Positions 6,503 to 21,066 of a stretch of 39,206 nucleotides of DNA are shown piece by piece (position 1 is the stretch's first letter; every line of letters begins with the position of its first letter). The notes below the pieces were generated by a model, which was not told the origin of the DNA, did not search any database, and worked only from the letters and a program-made list of their open reading frames with translations. The DNA lies in NCBI GenBank assembly GCA_002709085.1, contig PAPR01000035.1, positions 1 to 39,206 of the forward strand. Reading direction: 5' to 3'. Both the position numbers and the translations under genes were made by a program. Source of the DNA: Pseudooceanicola sp. Lineage in GTDB: Bacteria; Pseudomonadota; Alphaproteobacteria; Rhodobacterales; Rhodobacteraceae.

Positions 6503-7434
6503 TGTCCCTCGCGATTTCGGAGGCGGCCCGCGCAGCCCTGACGGAATGGCTGTCGGGCCTGACCTCTCTGCGCGGAGCTTCGGACGCGACGGTCGAGGCC
6601 TATCGCCGCGATCTGGTGGATTACCTGTCCTTCATGGCCGTGCATCACGGCGGGCCACAGGGGATTGCCGCGCTCGGGCAGGTGACGACCTCGGATATGC
6701 GGGCCTGGATGGCGCGGGAACGCGGCGATGGCCTTGGCGCGCGCTCGCTCGCCCGGAAATTGTCCGCGGTCAAGACGTTCCACCGCTGGCTGTCGCAGCG
6801 TGAGGGGTTGGAGGTCACGCCGATCCTCTCGGCCCGCGCGCCGAAGTTCCAGCGCAGCCTGCCGCGTCCCTTGGCCGAAGACGCCGCGCGCGCGATGATC
6901 GACACCGTCGGGTCAACGGACGCGCGGCCATGGGTGGCGGCGCGCGATGCCGCCGTGGTCACGTTGCTTTATGGCTGCGGCTTGCGGATCTCCGAGGCGC
7001 TGTCGTTGACCACCCACCACCTGCCCCTGGGGGATACGGTGCGCATCATCGGCAAGGGCGACAAGGAACGGATCGTGCCGCTCATCGCCCCGGCCCGCCG
7101 CGCGGTGGAGGCCTACCTCGATATTCAGCCGCACCCGATGAGCCTTGGCGATCCGATCTTCCGCGCCATTCGGGGCGGACCGCTGTCGCCGCGCAGCGTG
7201 CAAAAAGCGATGGAACAGGCGCGCATGGCGCTTGGCCTGCCGGCCACGGCCACGCCGCATGCGATGCGCCATTCCTTTGCCACCCATCTGCTGAGCGCGG
7301 GCGGCGATCTGCGGTCGATCCAGGACCTTTTGGGGCACGCCTCGCTGTCGACCACGCAGGTTTACACAGCCGTCGACACCGCCCGCCTGATGGAGGTCTA
7401 CGAGGCCAGCCATCCGCGCGCCGCAAAACGCTAG
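6502..7434 (+). CDS. xerC: Site-specific tyrosine recombinase XerC
   Basis: A 310-residue tyrosine recombinase that acts with XerD at dif to resolve chromosome dimers. The N-terminal SAM-like core-binding domain spans about residues 8-100. All catalytic residues are visible: R162 in GCGLRISEAL, K185 in GKGDKERIVPL, H253 and R256 in HAMRHSFATHLL, H279 in LLGHASLSTTQ, and the nucleophile Y288. The start codon overlaps the stop of the DUF484 gene, so the two are probably translated together. Coupling to a DUF484 gene is a conserved housekeeping arrangement, so it is not likely to be an integron or phage integrase. Confidence 0.93.
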   Translation: MSLAISEAARAALTEWLSGLTSLRGASDATVEAYRRDLVDYLSFMAVHHGGPQGIAALGQVTTSDMRAWMARERGDGLGARSLARKLSAVKTFHRWLSQREGLEVTPILSARAPKFQRSLPRPLAEDAARAMIDTVGSTDARPWVAARDAAVVTLLYGCGLRISEALSLTTHHLPLGDTVRIIGKGDKERIVPLIAPARRAVEAYLDIQPHPMSLGDPIFRAIRGGPLSPRSVQKAMEQARMALGLPATATPHAMRHSFATHLLSAGGDLRSIQDLLGHASLSTTQVYTAVDTARLMEVYEASHPRAAKR

Positions 7435-16037: not shown

Positions 16038-17699
16038 TTAGCGGGTCATGATGCGCCGTTCCGAGGCCAGACCCCTGCCGATCGCGACGCACATCAGCAA
16101 CAGGATCACCGTGAACGGCAGCCCGGTCGAGATGACCATGGATTGCAGCGCCTTGAGGCCCCCTGCGCTGAGCAGCAGGACGATGGCGACCGCGCCCTCA
16201 AAGATGCACCAGAAGGCGCGCTGCGGTACCGGCGCGTCGATCTTGCCACCCGCCGTGATCGTGTCGATCACCAGCGAACCGGAATCCGAGGAGGTCACGA
16301 AGAACACCACCACGAGGATGATCCCGACCAGCGAGGTGATGCTGGCGAGGGGCAGGGCGTCGAGCATCTTGAACAGCTTGAGTTCAAGAGAGGCGTCCTG
16401 TGCCAGCGTATACCCGTCGTTGATCACCTGGTAGAGCGCTGTACCGCCAAAGACCGACATCCAGAGCACGCAGACCAGCGAAGGGATCAGCAGCACGCAG
16501 ATAACAAATTCCCGTACGGTGCGGCCACGGCTGACGCGGGCGATGAACATGCCGACAAAGGGTGACCAGCTGATCCACCACGCCCAGTAGAACGAGGTCC
16601 AGCCCTGGCTGAAGTTTACGTCCTCACGCCCGAAGGGGTTCGAAAGCGCCGGCAGGAACTCGAAATACGCGCCGAGCGAGCCGACGAAGAGTTTCAGCAG
16701 GTAGATGGTCGGTCCGACCAGCAATACGAAGGCCAGGAGCAGGAAGGCCAGCCCCATGTTGATTTCCGACAGGATCTTTACCCCGCCATCAAGGCCGCGC
16801 ATCACCGAGATCAGCGCAATTGCGGTGATGCCCGAGATCAGGATGACCTCTGTGGTTGCGCCGATCGGCACGCCAAACAGCTCGTTCAGACCGGCGTTGG
16901 CCTGGGTTGCGCCAAAGCCGAGCGATGTGGCAAGGCCGAACAGCGTGGCAAAGACGGCGAGCGTGTCGATCACGTGACCGACCCAACCCCAGACCGCATC
17001 CCCGAAGATCGGGTGAAAGGCGGATCGGATCGTCAGGGGCAGACCCTTGTTGTAGGAGAACAACGCCAGCGCCAGCGCGACGACCGCGTAGATCGCCCAA
17101 GGGTGCAGGCCCCAGTGAAAAATCGTGGCCGCCATACCCAGCCTCGCGGCTGCCACCTCGTCGCCCGCGGCACCGCCGAGCGGGGCCCAGTCGGTGCGCG
17201 CACCGCCTTCGGCCACTGTGCCACCGAGTGAGGAGGAGAAGTGGCTCATCGGTTCGGAGACGCCGTAGAACATCAGACCGATGCCCATCCCCGCCGCGAA
17301 GAGCATCGCGAACCAGCCGATGTAGGAATAATCCGGCGTCGCGTCCGAGCCGCCCAGCCGCACGCTGCCCCAGGGGGTCACGATCAAAACGAGGCAGAAG
17401 AGCACGAAGATGTTCGCAGAGCCGATAAAGAACCAGTCGAACCCTTGGGTCACCGCGCCAAAGAGCCAGGCAAACACGCCCCCCGCCTGTTCGGGCAGCA
17501 CCAGCGTGTAGAACACGAAGGCGATGATCGTGAGGCCGGAGATCATGAAAACCGGGTTATGAATGTCAAAGCCGAACGGCCCGACCGCACCCTCGACGTT
17601 GTTTTGCCCGATCTCGTAATCGGTTTGGATGATCTGGGCATCACCTTCCGGGCTGGGAATGCCCTCGGCGGTTCCCGAATTTTCCGTTCGGTCGTCCAT
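16038..17699 (-). CDS. BCCT-family transporter (betaine/choline/carnitine type)
   Basis: A 553-residue secondary transporter with about twelve transmembrane helices and an acidic cytoplasmic N-terminus of roughly 45 residues. The BCCT core motif with the tryptophan-rich substrate box is visible (WTSFYWAWWISWSPFVGMF), followed by ARVSRGRTVREF. The family imports quaternary ammonium or sulfonium solutes such as glycine betaine, choline or DMSP, usually with sodium. AAGGAC lies a few bases upstream of the ATG. It is monocistronic, with its own terminator. Choice among betaine, choline and DMSP cannot be made from the sequence here. Confidence 0.9.
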   Translation of the reverse strand: MDDRTENSGTAEGIPSPEGDAQIIQTDYEIGQNNVEGAVGPFGFDIHNPVFMISGLTIIAFVFYTLVLPEQAGGVFAWLFGAVTQGFDWFFIGSANIFVLFCLVLIVTPWGSVRLGGSDATPDYSYIGWFAMLFAAGMGIGLMFYGVSEPMSHFSSSLGGTVAEGGARTDWAPLGGAAGDEVAAARLGMAATIFHWGLHPWAIYAVVALALALFSYNKGLPLTIRSAFHPIFGDAVWGWVGHVIDTLAVFATLFGLATSLGFGATQANAGLNELFGVPIGATTEVILISGITAIALISVMRGLDGGVKILSEINMGLAFLLLAFVLLVGPTIYLLKLFVGSLGAYFEFLPALSNPFGREDVNFSQGWTSFYWAWWISWSPFVGMFIARVSRGRTVREFVICVLLIPSLVCVLWMSVFGGTALYQVINDGYTLAQDASLELKLFKMLDALPLASITSLVGIILVVVFFVTSSDSGSLVIDTITAGGKIDAPVPQRAFWCIFEGAVAIVLLLSAGGLKALQSMVISTGLPFTVILLLMCVAIGRGLASERRIMTR

Positions 17700-18090
17700 C
17701 CGCTGTCCTTTCGTCTTGTTTTTTGCTTTCGTTGACCGGTGCGCGCCAACCGGTCAGCGACGTTACACCGCGAGGTGTTAACGAAGTCTGACCGCAAGGA
17801 TCTGTGCGACACCTATTGGCGCAACAAGGGTGATTGGCAGCAGCGTAACCGCAATATGGGGCAAAAATCTAGGGGGTATCAATGAGTTGCCTGTAGGTCA
17901 GGTCGCGCGTCTCTGCACGGCGCTCGCCGGACCCGGCCACCGGGGCGGGTTTCGCTGTTCAGCATGTCAGGCAAACTACTCCTATTTATCGGTTTCCGGG
18001 GCAGATTGTGTGCCTCTTGCGAAAAGGCTAGAGTCGTATCAATACACCCCATTATGAATGCAGAACTTTGCGAATGCAGAAGGTCCGAAG
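17700..18090. other. Intergenic region between diverging BCCT and RsbQ-like genes
   Basis: About 390 bases contain no convincing gene. On the plus strand a sigma-70-like pair (TTGTGT at 18006-18011, 17-base spacer, TAGAGT at 18029-18034) could drive the RsbQ-like gene. An alternative ATG at 18058 is in frame with that gene but has no ribosome site. No EcfG-like motif (GGAAC with CGTT) was found here. Confidence 0.4.
18006..18034 (+). promoter_or_regulatory. Candidate sigma-70 promoter of the RsbQ-like/HWE kinase operon
   Basis: TTGTGT is separated by 17 bases from TAGAGT. Three or four of six positions match in each box, the spacing is ideal, and the site is about 55 bases before the preferred start codon. 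Confidence 0.3.
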
Positions 18091-18903
18091 ATGATCGAGC
18101 GCAACAACGTTGTCGTTTCGGGTTCGCCCCAAGGGCGGACGGTTGTTTTTGTGCATGGGTTCGGCTGTGACCAATCCATGTGGCGCGATGTAACGCCCGC
18201 CTTCGAGGCGGATCACCGTGTCGTCCTGTATGATCTGACTGGGATGGGTCAATCTGATCTCTCGGCCTATGATGTCGCGCGTTACGACCGTTTAGACGCG
18301 CATGCCGAAGATCTGCTGGCCATCCTGACGGAAATTGACGCTCACAATGCGGTCGTGGTCGGCCATTCGGTCGGGGCGACCATCGCGGTGCTGGCGGCCA
18401 ACGAGGTCATGACCGAGGGCACGGGACGCATTGGCGAATTGATCCTCGTGTCGCCCTCGCCCTGTTTTTACACGGATGAAGAGGCGGGCTATGCCGGGGG
18501 ATTTGCACGGCGCGATCTGGAAGATCTGGTAAAGATGCTGGAGGACAATCACCTCGGCTGGTCGATGCAGTTGGCCCCCACCATCGCCGGTCAGAGCGCT
18601 GACGAGGTGCAGGCCGACCGCCTGACCCAGAGCTTTTGCCGGACCGATCCGGGGATCGCACAACACTTTGGCCGTGTGACGTTTCTGGGTGACCACCGCG
18701 CAGATTTCGAACACCTCGCCGCGCCGTCGCTGGTGCTGCATTGCGATGCAGATGCCTTGGTGCCGATGACCGTGGCAGAGTGGATGCGCGACCGGGTGCC
18801 CGGAACGCGGGTGCACGTTCTGAATGCGACTGGCCATTGCCCGCATATGACCGTTCCGGCAGATGTCGTTGCGGCCATGCGCGACCATCTCGGGGAAGTC
18901 TGA
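18091..18903 (+). CDS. RsbQ-like alpha/beta hydrolase
   Basis: A 270-residue alpha/beta hydrolase that closely follows Bacillus RsbQ in layout and length (RsbQ is about 269 residues). The nucleophile is S93 in GHSVGATIA, the acid lies in DADALVP (probably D221) and the histidine is H249 in GHCPHM. RsbQ-type landmarks are VSPSPCFYTD, a GGF motif and SFCRTDPGIAQHFGR. RsbQ is needed with RsbP for energy-stress activation of sigma-B, and plant KAI2/D14 receptors share this fold. The start is the ATG at 18091, with AGAAGG seven bases before it. Its stop overlaps the kinase start (TGATG), so it very likely works with that kinase. Its ligand is unknown. Confidence 0.9.
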   Translation: MIERNNVVVSGSPQGRTVVFVHGFGCDQSMWRDVTPAFEADHRVVLYDLTGMGQSDLSAYDVARYDRLDAHAEDLLAILTEIDAHNAVVVGHSVGATIAVLAANEVMTEGTGRIGELILVSPSPCFYTDEEAGYAGGFARRDLEDLVKMLEDNHLGWSMQLAPTIAGQSADEVQADRLTQSFCRTDPGIAQHFGRVTFLGDHRADFEHLAAPSLVLHCDADALVPMTVAEWMRDRVPGTRVHVLNATGHCPHMTVPADVVAAMRDHLGEV

Positions 18904-20267
18904 TGCCTGATGCTGGCGGCGTGGATCGTCGCGAGGTCCTTGTGCAACTGATCGACGATGCGCCTTGCGGGATCGTTTCGACGGATCCGGACGGGCGGAT
19001 CCAATATCTGAACAGCACCTTGCGCAAATGGCTTGGGGGATCGCCCGAGGTCGAGTTGAAGCGGTTCCCGGACTTCCTCACCGGGGCAGGGCAGTTGTTT
19101 TACGAGACCCACATGGCCCCGATGATGCGCCTGCAGGGCTTCATTCGCGAGATTTCCTGCGCGCTCGACCGGCGGGACGCAGAGCCGCTGCCTGTCTTGT
19201 TAAGCGGAGTCGTCCGTCGCAACGAGGCGGGGGAGCCGACCCGGTTCGATTACACGATCTTCGATGCCAGCGAGCGGCATGCCTATGAAGAAGAATTGCG
19301 CGTGGCCCGGCGCAACGCCGATGAACTCGCCGCGATCATCCGCAGTTCGCCCAACGCGATTGTGCGGGTCGATGCCGGCGGACGTATCGGCAGCTGGAAT
19401 GCCGGGGCGGAGCGCCTGACCGGGCAGGGGCTGGCCAGCGTACTTAACAAACCGATACAGGATGTGATCCGCCTGGACGCGCGCTCTGCATGGTTCGACG
19501 AGGCGATCCGGGACTACGCGGGGAGTGGCGAAGTCGTCTTTGAAGCCCAGAGCGCGCTGGGGCTTGATTTTGAGGTCACGCTGACGCCGATCAATGAATA
19601 CAACCCGACGCAGACATCGGTGAACTGGTCGGTCGTCCTGCGCGATATCACGCAGCGCAAGCGCGCGGAACGGCATCTCAACGTGATGGTTGGCGAGATG
19701 AAGCATCGGGTCAACAACACGCTCGCCGTGGTTTCGGGTATCGCGCGCCAAAGCCTGCCCAAAGAGCATACGCCGCGCTTCATCGCCCGCCTGCGTGCCT
19801 TGGCGCAGGCACATGAAGCGCTGGCGCAATCCGGCTCCTCGGGCGCGGAATTGCGCCAGGTGCTGGAATTCAGCGCACAAGAGGCCGGCGGCGCAGAGCG
19901 TTTTGCCGTACACGGTCCCGACATCTGGTTGAGCCCGCAGCAATCCGCGTCACTCTCGATGGCATTTCACGAGCTGGTCACCAACGGGCTGAAATACGGT
20001 GCCCTGTCCGTCCCCGAGGGGCGGGTAGACGTGACCTACGAGTGGGAAGACGCGATGACCTCGCAAGAGGCAGATACGGCGCGGCGCTTGGCGATCACAT
20101 GGGTCGAGAGTGGCGGGCCTCCCGTCGCGCAACCCACGCGCCAGGGGTTCGGCACCAAGATGATTGGCACAGTGCTGGCCGCGGAACTCGATGCTGAGGT
20201 GACGTTCGATTATCGCTCCACCGGGTTTCGGTGTGAGATCGTGTTCGCGCCTCTCACCCCGGACTGA
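18903..20267 (+). CDS. PAS-PAS sensor histidine kinase, HWE family
   Basis: A 454-residue protein with no transmembrane segment. A first PAS domain occupies about residues 10-125 and contains FYETHMAPMMRLQGFIREI, a form often seen with PP2C phosphatases and HWE kinases. A second PAS domain spans about 138-255 (IIRSSPNAIVRVDAGGRIGSW). The phospho-acceptor is H268 in EMKHRVNNTLAVVSG. The ATPase domain has the HWE hallmarks: H356 in HELVTNGLKYGAL and W400-x-E402 in ITWVESGG. No receiver domain is attached, so phosphate must pass to an unlinked regulator. In alphaproteobacteria PhyR is a common partner of such kinases. It is coupled to the RsbQ-like gene. Confidence 0.9.
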   Translation: MPDAGGVDRREVLVQLIDDAPCGIVSTDPDGRIQYLNSTLRKWLGGSPEVELKRFPDFLTGAGQLFYETHMAPMMRLQGFIREISCALDRRDAEPLPVLLSGVVRRNEAGEPTRFDYTIFDASERHAYEEELRVARRNADELAAIIRSSPNAIVRVDAGGRIGSWNAGAERLTGQGLASVLNKPIQDVIRLDARSAWFDEAIRDYAGSGEVVFEAQSALGLDFEVTLTPINEYNPTQTSVNWSVVLRDITQRKRAERHLNVMVGEMKHRVNNTLAVVSGIARQSLPKEHTPRFIARLRALAQAHEALAQSGSSGAELRQVLEFSAQEAGGAERFAVHGPDIWLSPQQSASLSMAFHELVTNGLKYGALSVPEGRVDVTYEWEDAMTSQEADTARRLAITWVESGGPPVAQPTRQGFGTKMIGTVLAAELDAEVTFDYRSTGFRCEIVFAPLTPD

Positions 20268-20419: not shown

Positions 20420-20773
20420 TCAGATCCAATACATAGGCACGCCGTAATGCTCGTGGGTCCGACGTTCCCATTCCCGGTCATCGAACCAAGAGTCGTGGCG
20501 ATCCGGGGCGCCCTTGACCTGTTCTTCGGTGATGTCGGTCACAAACCCAGACTTCTGGGTGTCATAGTTCAGCTTTTGCCACGGCACGGGATAGTGCTCT
20601 TCGCCCAGACCGAGGAAGCCTCCAAAGCCCATGACGGCGTAGGCAACCTTACCGGATTCCTTGTCGATCATCAGATGATCGATGGAGCCGATGTGCGTAC
20701 CGGTGTTGCTGTAGACGTCCGTGCCATTCACGTTGCTGGAGGAAACCAGCGGGGATGCATGTGTAGTAGTCAT
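20420..20773 (-). CDS. PRC-barrel domain protein
   Basis: A 117-residue soluble protein with a single PRC-barrel domain at about residues 10-80. The motifs are VYSNTGTHIGSIDHLMIDKE and VAYAVMGFGGFLGLGEEHYP, followed by the downstream PVPWQKLNYD typical of the stress-related PRC-barrel group. The C-terminus is charged and ends in YGVPMYWI. Function is unknown; such genes are commonly induced by stress. A ribosome site AGGAGG lies upstream of the ATG. An EcfG-like promoter motif lies 35-60 bases upstream, which fits a place in the general stress regulon. Confidence 0.88.
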   Translation of the reverse strand: MTTTHASPLVSSSNVNGTDVYSNTGTHIGSIDHLMIDKESGKVAYAVMGFGGFLGLGEEHYPVPWQKLNYDTQKSGFVTDITEEQVKGAPDRHDSWFDDREWERRTHEHYGVPMYWI

Positions 20774-20807
20774 TGCCCAATCCTCCTAATCAGGGATGTA
20801 CAAGGGA

Positions 20808-20833
20808 AACCAATATCCGGTCGTCGCAGTTCC
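20808..20833 (-). promoter_or_regulatory. EcfG-like promoter of the PRC-barrel gene
   Basis: On the minus strand GGAAC (complement of 20829-20833) is followed after 17 bases by GGTT (complement of 20808-20811). Alphaproteobacterial EcfG promoters have GGAAC, 16-17 bases, then CGTT or a close variant. The -10 is one mismatch from CGTT. The distance to the ATG at 20773 is appropriate. Confidence 0.5.
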
Positions 20834-20978
20834 CCACCCAACCCAAGGTGCGCCAAGTCCCGCCACTCATCGCGCGATACCTCTTCCTCGTGCGGGGGCG
20901 GTGTCCTAGGCGACCGGGCCAATTATCCCCGACTTCAGGAGATTGGCGCGCGAGGAAATCGGCAACTTTCCGCCATTC

Positions 20979-21003
20979 GGAACTTTTGCGTGGTGTTCAC
21001 GTT
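20979..21003 (+). promoter_or_regulatory. EcfG-type promoter of the small-membrane-protein operon
   Basis: GGAAC at 20979-20983 is followed after exactly 16 bases by CGTT at 21000-21003, a perfect match to the general-stress sigma factor consensus. It lies 63 bases before the first small ORF of the downstream operon. Confidence 0.65.
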
Positions 21004-21066
21004 GAGGTGAGCGGCGTGACTGCGCCGGAAACCTCCAATCAAAGCAAATGGAACGGAGAATTTGGG

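Follow-up and report, generated by a model that had tools for sequence, protein, structure and literature searches.

An RsbQ-type hydrolase and a PAS-PAS-HWE histidine kinase encoded by overlapping genes in Pseudooceanicola: a probable bipartite sensor with a plausible stress-response link

Gene pairs in which an RsbQ-like hydrolase stands beside a protein that begins with a PAS domain raise the question of what is sensed and what is controlled when the output is a histidine kinase. One such pair occupies positions 18091 to 20267 of the window, the whole stretch of 39,206 nucleotides of Pseudooceanicola sp. DNA that was analysed. Sections of the 2011 paper by Nadezhdin, Brody and Price (PMC3183031) describe 45 adjacent RsbQ/RsbP-PAS pairs with phosphatase, histidine kinase (in Gram-negatives) or diguanylate cyclase outputs, report that Bacillus RsbQ contacts the PAS domain directly and that RsbP F55A loses this contact, and call the cue of the module mysterious. 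Part of PMC12143880 presents an AlphaFold2 model of two RsbP and two RsbQ chains in which RsbQ is placed between the PAS domains and linkers. The RsbQ triad has been found by others to be required in Bacillus.

The first gene of the pair encodes a hydrolase of RsbQ type. Its mechanically called reading frame begins at 18058; the ATG at 18091 was taken as the start because the start of a related hydrolase (L008) supports it. Among solved structures the best sequence match is B. subtilis RsbQ (1wom, E 1.7e-67, residues 2-267), followed by Olei00960 and then by KAI2 and D14, and Foldseek with the predicted structure (mean pLDDT 92.5) returns the same order, with 1wom at rank 1 (TM 0.93, 41% identity). 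The plant KAI2/D14 proteins belong to the same hydrolase family and share the fold and triad (TM about 0.89-0.93), but their identity to the window hydrolase in Foldseek is only 27-34%. KAI2 and D14 signal via F-box partners, not a PAS kinase. The closest named hydrolases among the matches listed come from Limimaricola, Leisingera and Oceanicola, and Pfam assigns the protein to the alpha/beta hydrolases, nothing finer. The residues of the Ser-Asp-His triad are the same in all 99 aligned hydrolases, the window's included:

18091..18903 (+): RsbQ-type alpha/beta hydrolase, 270 aa (sequence, Pfam, RsbQ structure match, predicted model)
18367..18369 (+): Ser93, nucleophile in GHSVG (S in 99/99)
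18751..18753 (+): Asp221, triad acid (D in 99/99; aligns with RsbQ)
18835..18837 (+): His249, triad base in GHCPHM (H in 99/99)

The second gene starts within the stop codon of the first, as the hydrolase TGA (18901-18903) and the kinase ATG (18903-18905) share one base, and the RsbQ gene thus lies immediately upstream, as in the 2011 module. The elements of the overlap and of the kinase are the following:

18901..18905 (+): TGATG, in which the hydrolase stop and the kinase start overlap (ORF coordinates)
18903..20267 (+): PAS-PAS-HWE histidine kinase, 454 aa (Pfam, structure matches, predicted model)
18948..19265 (+): PAS1 of RsbP type, residues 16-121, the presumed site of hydrolase contact (class residues spaced as published, DIT absent)
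19083..19136 (+): F-alpha helix of PAS1, residues 61-78, with the equivalents of RsbP F55 and Y59 (model; contact role published for Bacillus)
19269..19346 (+): helix of 26 residues joining PAS1 to PAS2, residues 123-148 (predicted model)
19320..19679 (+): PAS2, residues 140-259, with DIT at its end (Pfam, alignment)
19695..19922 (+): HWE_HK dimerisation/phosphoacceptor domain, with His268 at 19704-19706 (Pfam, alignment)
19935..20252 (+): ATP-binding region containing Glu357 and Trp400-x-Glu402 (unchanged across the 15 kinases aligned)

Pfam finds two PAS stretches and HWE_HK in the kinase, the latter at E 8.9e-16 and 58.9 bits against a cut-off of 22.8. A W-x-E motif is a further mark of HWE kinases. 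The window kinase carries it as Trp400 and Glu402, together with the conserved Arg (Arg296) and the Glu in place of the first N-box Asn (Glu357) that part of PMC12148442 gives among the HWE marks, and all four residues are invariant among the 15 aligned HWE-module kinases. Only two chains among solved structures match the kinase, 5epv and 6ph4, both titled 'blue-light-activated histidine kinase' and both matching at the kinase core. These are presumably HWE LOV kinases. Of the six HWE_HK matches in its own genome (assembly 77% complete), the window kinase scores highest. Its predicted model has a mean pLDDT of 83.4 and a pTM of 0.47, so the placement of the domains relative to each other is unsure.

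PAS1 is the most N-terminal domain of the kinase, and its assignment depends on residues. According to sections of PMC3183031, nine class residues define RsbP-PAS, whose members are without DIT. By the published numbering and spacing, PAS1 carries C22, L59, Q64, F66, H70, P73, E83 and P97; it is identical to B. subtilis RsbP at C10 (as C22), L48, Q53, F55, E72 and P86, and the published spacing from L48 to P86 is the same in the window (L59 to P97). It departs from B. subtilis at L13 (V), C56 (Y) and Y59 (H), the last of which falls within the HY class published in the same paper. PAS1 is without a DIT end and PAS2 has one. In the surveyed set D[IV]T occurs near the end of 14 of 86 PAS1 regions, the window's lying outside those 14, so the published no-DIT mark is not strict; this set left out L024, L025, L026, L040, L065, L067, L083 and L092, where the reading frame picked was wrong or unrelated, and of which L040, L065 and L083 were later recovered. 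Sections of the 2011 paper also report a coiled coil, 21 residues or longer, leading to the output in 36 of its 45 proteins and an extra PAS domain in 5 of 45; the window kinase has PAS2 and, in the predicted model, the 26-residue linker helix.

These results bear out most of what a sequence-only reading had claimed for the two proteins: a full-length RsbQ homologue with its triad intact, a fold common to KAI2 and D14, an RsbP-like first PAS domain and an HWE kinase. Its phrase 'fused by operon' holds for the overlap of stop and start, and there is no protein fusion. The pair accordingly has several features of the 2011 histidine-kinase class as described in sections of that paper, namely the RsbQ gene immediately upstream, the RsbP-type PAS at the N-terminus, a histidine-kinase output in a Gram-negative and an extra PAS. 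With B. subtilis RsbQ-RsbP, the energy branch of sigma-B, it shares the hydrolase fold, the triad, the PAS contact residues and the gene order, but RsbP has a single PAS domain and a PPM phosphatase acting on RsbV-P, whereas the window has a kinase output. HWE/HisKA2 stress kinases, among them the LOV kinases and RT-HK, likewise join a PAS- or LOV-type sensor to an HWE core, but their sensor lies inside the kinase, whereas in the window sensing seems to be shared between two proteins.

Whether the hydrolase and the kinase belong together was addressed by a survey of relatives, made up of the best 80 of 561 confirmed relatives from a contig scan plus 14 loci that further searches supplied, 94 in total. 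Next after the hydrolase comes a domain resembling PAS1 of the window in 78 of the 80 named loci (best 80 of 561) and in 87 of 94 overall, the exceptions being L067, L092 and the five more distant hydrolases L022-L026; a control query with the window's PAS2 matches in 17 of 94. The distance from hydrolase to PAS gene, by first possible start codon, is at most 10 nt in 73 of 75 measured cases. Lack of conserved adjacency had been named beforehand as a possible refutation, and the pair was found to be kept. Plain co-transcription, in which the hydrolase would serve a catabolic step and the kinase would be an unrelated neighbour, is very improbable: the pair stays together in Pseudomonadota, Actinomycetota, Bacteroidota and other groups even though its output domain varies. 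In favour of plain co-transcription stand the unspecific Pfam assignment of the hydrolase and the two loci of the best 80 of 561 (L067 and L092) without a PAS gene directly downstream. Chance is excluded by the E-values and by the persistence of the gene pair among relatives.

The output domains fall, by similarity clustering of the 94 loci, into other histidine kinases (30), PPM phosphatases (21), HWE kinases (15) and GGDEF proteins (11), the remaining 17 being fragments, single cases or outside the output groups; four duplicate loci (L013-L016) were left out of this grouping. The class labelled HisKA is a similarity cluster whose representative, L041, shows HATPase_c and no HisKA in Pfam. 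Pfam checks of output genes covered 10 representatives, four kinases and 20 more. By these, L114 and L121, which had no assignment from the clustering, are HisKA kinases, L114 with a receiver at its start; L119 has GGDEF and no PAS at E 0.001; every HWE assignment stood; and the HWE_HK cut-off is passed by all 17 scanned of 18 tree-labelled HWE genes, L035 being the one outside the scan.

A quick tree of 99 hydrolases, with SH-aLRT support only and with L022-L026 (30-34% identity) and duplicate genomes left out, places the window in a Rhodobacterales-centred group of 18 rows with support 100. This group comprises 16 of the 18 HWE-output hydrolases, L019 and L118 standing apart, together with L028, whose kinase runs off the contig, and L034, whose kinase is interrupted by an unread stretch. 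L034 is the RsbQ of Oceanicola granulosus, a species listed in PMC3183031. Across the tree, 19 output-label changes are needed for five labels, and outputs differ even within a genus: in G588, from the same genus as the window, an RsbQ of 44% identity is paired with a HisKA output. Distances between hydrolases are correlated with those between PAS1 domains (Mantel rho 0.73, 82 pairs, 0 of 500 permutations), a result that common descent alone would give. Two records titled Nocardioides marinus (L031, JAHVJD010000006.1) and Flavobacteriaceae (L036, NZQO01000161.1) carry HWE modules nested among Rhodobacterales, and these titles look wrong or the assemblies mixed. Limimaricola soesokkakensis has two RsbQ-HWE modules on one contig, L030 adjoining a single-domain receiver and L032 adjoining a LuxR-type regulator.

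In the openly licensed literature, PMC3183031 is the only paper found that treats an RsbQ-like hydrolase together with a PAS domain and a histidine kinase, and no account joining RsbQ to HWE was found there. The words HWE, PhyR and EcfG are absent from the main text of that paper, and HWE members may still be among the kinases in its figures. The earlier suggestion that a histidine kinase replaces the PP2C output fits the HWE domain of the window, and this replacement is not new, since sections of PMC3183031 described it in 2011. Energy state, also put forward as the signal, is rejected as unsupported, following the discussion in parts of the same paper. What is added to the 2011 description is the adjacency survey, the tree group of HWE outputs and a well-defined HWE-output member; gating of an HWE kinase by the hydrolase and a connection to sigma-EcfG would be the novelties, and both are reasonable proposals.

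The pair is likely to form a two-part sensor of RsbQ-PAS type whose output is an HWE histidine kinase; contact between these two proteins, gating and the existence of a ligand are inferred. A small-molecule ligand would be bound, and probably hydrolysed, by the hydrolase, which would touch PAS1 through the F-alpha surface, to judge from the Bacillus contact. The altered contact may be relayed through the linker helix and PAS2 into the HWE core, where autophosphorylation of His268 would change in turn, and the phosphoryl group would then pass to a PhyR-type receiver or else to another response regulator. The hydrolase need not be the receptor. Two models are left standing in the relevant sections of PMC3183031, one of which (Model 1) has the hydrolase supply a ligand or cofactor to the PAS domain, and direct RsbQ-PAS contact in Bacillus is compatible with both. 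Such a ligand-making role for the window hydrolase, with the product handed to PAS1, is a possibility of roughly middling-to-low standing; the triad, invariant in 99 of 99 relatives, speaks for it, and the closeness to the KAI2/D14 receptors favours, by analogy, a hydrolase that is itself the receptor.

The remaining question concerns the target of the kinase. According to part of PMC12148442, HWE/HisKA2 kinases coordinate the alphaproteobacterial stress response, and RT-HK of R. thermophilum phosphorylates one of its two PhyRs. The cascade is present in the window's genome, where phyR, nepR and ecfG lie side by side with a HisKA_2/HWE kinase gene on contig C6. The window itself is contig C35, so the module kinase lies outside that locus (a place inside it is usual for some input kinases and not required), and the possession of its own kinase by the C6 locus counts against a PhyR link of the window kinase. 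In a family survey of 394 genomes, where a carrier has the hydrolase at E 1e-40 or better and up to six candidates per genome were scored, 17 genomes carry the module and 188 have NepR. With kinship ignored throughout, NepR occurs in 14 of 17 carriers versus 174 of 377 non-carriers (one-sided Fisher p 0.003), in 8 of 9 HWE carriers (p 0.012; the miss, G753, is 77% complete) and in 6 of 8 carriers with other outputs (p 0.10; the misses, G632 and G735, are nearly complete). This last count means that the enrichment is not HWE-specific. A count of 23 carrier genomes gives NepR in 20, the misses being G219, G537 (2.2 Mb) and G540 (2.7 Mb).

That the phosphoryl group goes to a receiver of PhyR type, in the simplest case the PhyR that governs the general stress response, has somewhat under an even chance. 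A route to PhyR through a single-domain receiver is also possible, because MrrA-type receivers are hubs of the Caulobacter stress response, as part of PMC5964349 reports. The single-domain receiver of L030, used as a query against the window's assembly at E 0.001, gives two matches, PhyR and a receiver encoded with its own HisKA_2 kinase. Elsewhere in the window's genome, the gene for a single-domain receiver resembling that of PhyR (L128, G000:C10:3764-4102) overlaps the gene for its own PAS-HisKA_2 kinase.

Likewise somewhat under even are the prospects of the rival proposal that the sensor module is the same and its kinase feeds a LuxR-type or single-domain regulator, and with it a specific gene set instead of the general stress response. 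In L028, L029, L032, L035 and L037 the gene immediately upstream of the module encodes a LuxR-type regulator (by Pfam in L035, by similarity in the others), which suggests another target there, and in L030 it encodes a single-domain receiver; all six, of 20 distinct HWE-type loci scanned, are Limimaricola. Against this, no such regulator stands directly upstream in the other 14 of the 20, the window among them, within limited and unequal flanks (down to 0.5 kb, in L028) and by similarity to four query receivers. The ANTAR regulator of the window (22126), about 1.9 kb past the kinase, was set aside as a partner because it lies beside NMT1-type proteins. In L034 a hybrid kinase that includes a receiver is encoded on the opposite strand, just past the module.

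Promoter motifs bear on the PhyR reading from another side. The sigma-EcfG consensus, as given in part of PMC12148442, is GGAAC-N16/17-C/GGTT. Control of the operon itself by sigma-EcfG was rejected, as GGAAC is absent on either strand between 17700 and 18090 and no promoter of this type lies upstream. In the wider form (C/GGTT) the window holds four matches against 1.43 expected, a number reached in 5 of 100 shuffles; one lies inside the kinase gene, and weight was given only to the pair in the intergenic region 20774-21066, whose members point outwards:

20808..20833 (-): sigma-EcfG-type promoter match upstream of the PRC-barrel gene, a neighbour not shown to be part of the module (consensus match)
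20979..21003 (+): sigma-EcfG-type promoter match that points away from the module, also a neighbour (consensus match)

Two or more matches occur in this region in a fraction of 0.0006 of 20,000 shuffles, in a test made after the matches had been seen. Genome-wide, GGAAC-N16/17-CGTT has 58 matches versus 89 for the reversed control and is not enriched, and the motif alone therefore does not mark regulon genes here. The region is divergent, with the PRC-barrel gene (20420-20773, -) on one side and, on the plus-strand side, a short hydrophobic ORF and a longer membrane-protein-like ORF without a Pfam match. In L012, two overlapping and oppositely oriented matches of the same type lie between nepR and phyR (7401-7433). 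On the other flank of the module, a BCCT-family transporter gene (16038-17699, -) is divergent from it; among the window and 16 related loci, BCCT (also in L027 and L031) is the only family found in at least three loci including the window, module genes and their antisense frames aside.

A link of the module to the stress response is plausible. If PhyR is fed, one sensor would serve two unrelated stress sigma systems. A wider proposal, put forward tentatively and with more doubt than confidence, is that a single kind of KAI2/D14-like hydrolase-PAS receptor has twice been connected to a general stress response by unrelated outputs: a phosphatase leads to sigma-B in Gram-positives, and an HWE kinase to sigma-EcfG in Rhodobacterales. 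If this is true, stress sigma factors of distant phyla would be under the control of one conserved ligand. The natural ligand of KAI2 is described in part of PMC10504578 as still undiscovered. The kinase-ended version of the module, with two genes in culturable marine bacteria and an autophosphorylation that can be read in a tube, is a convenient one for a ligand hunt.
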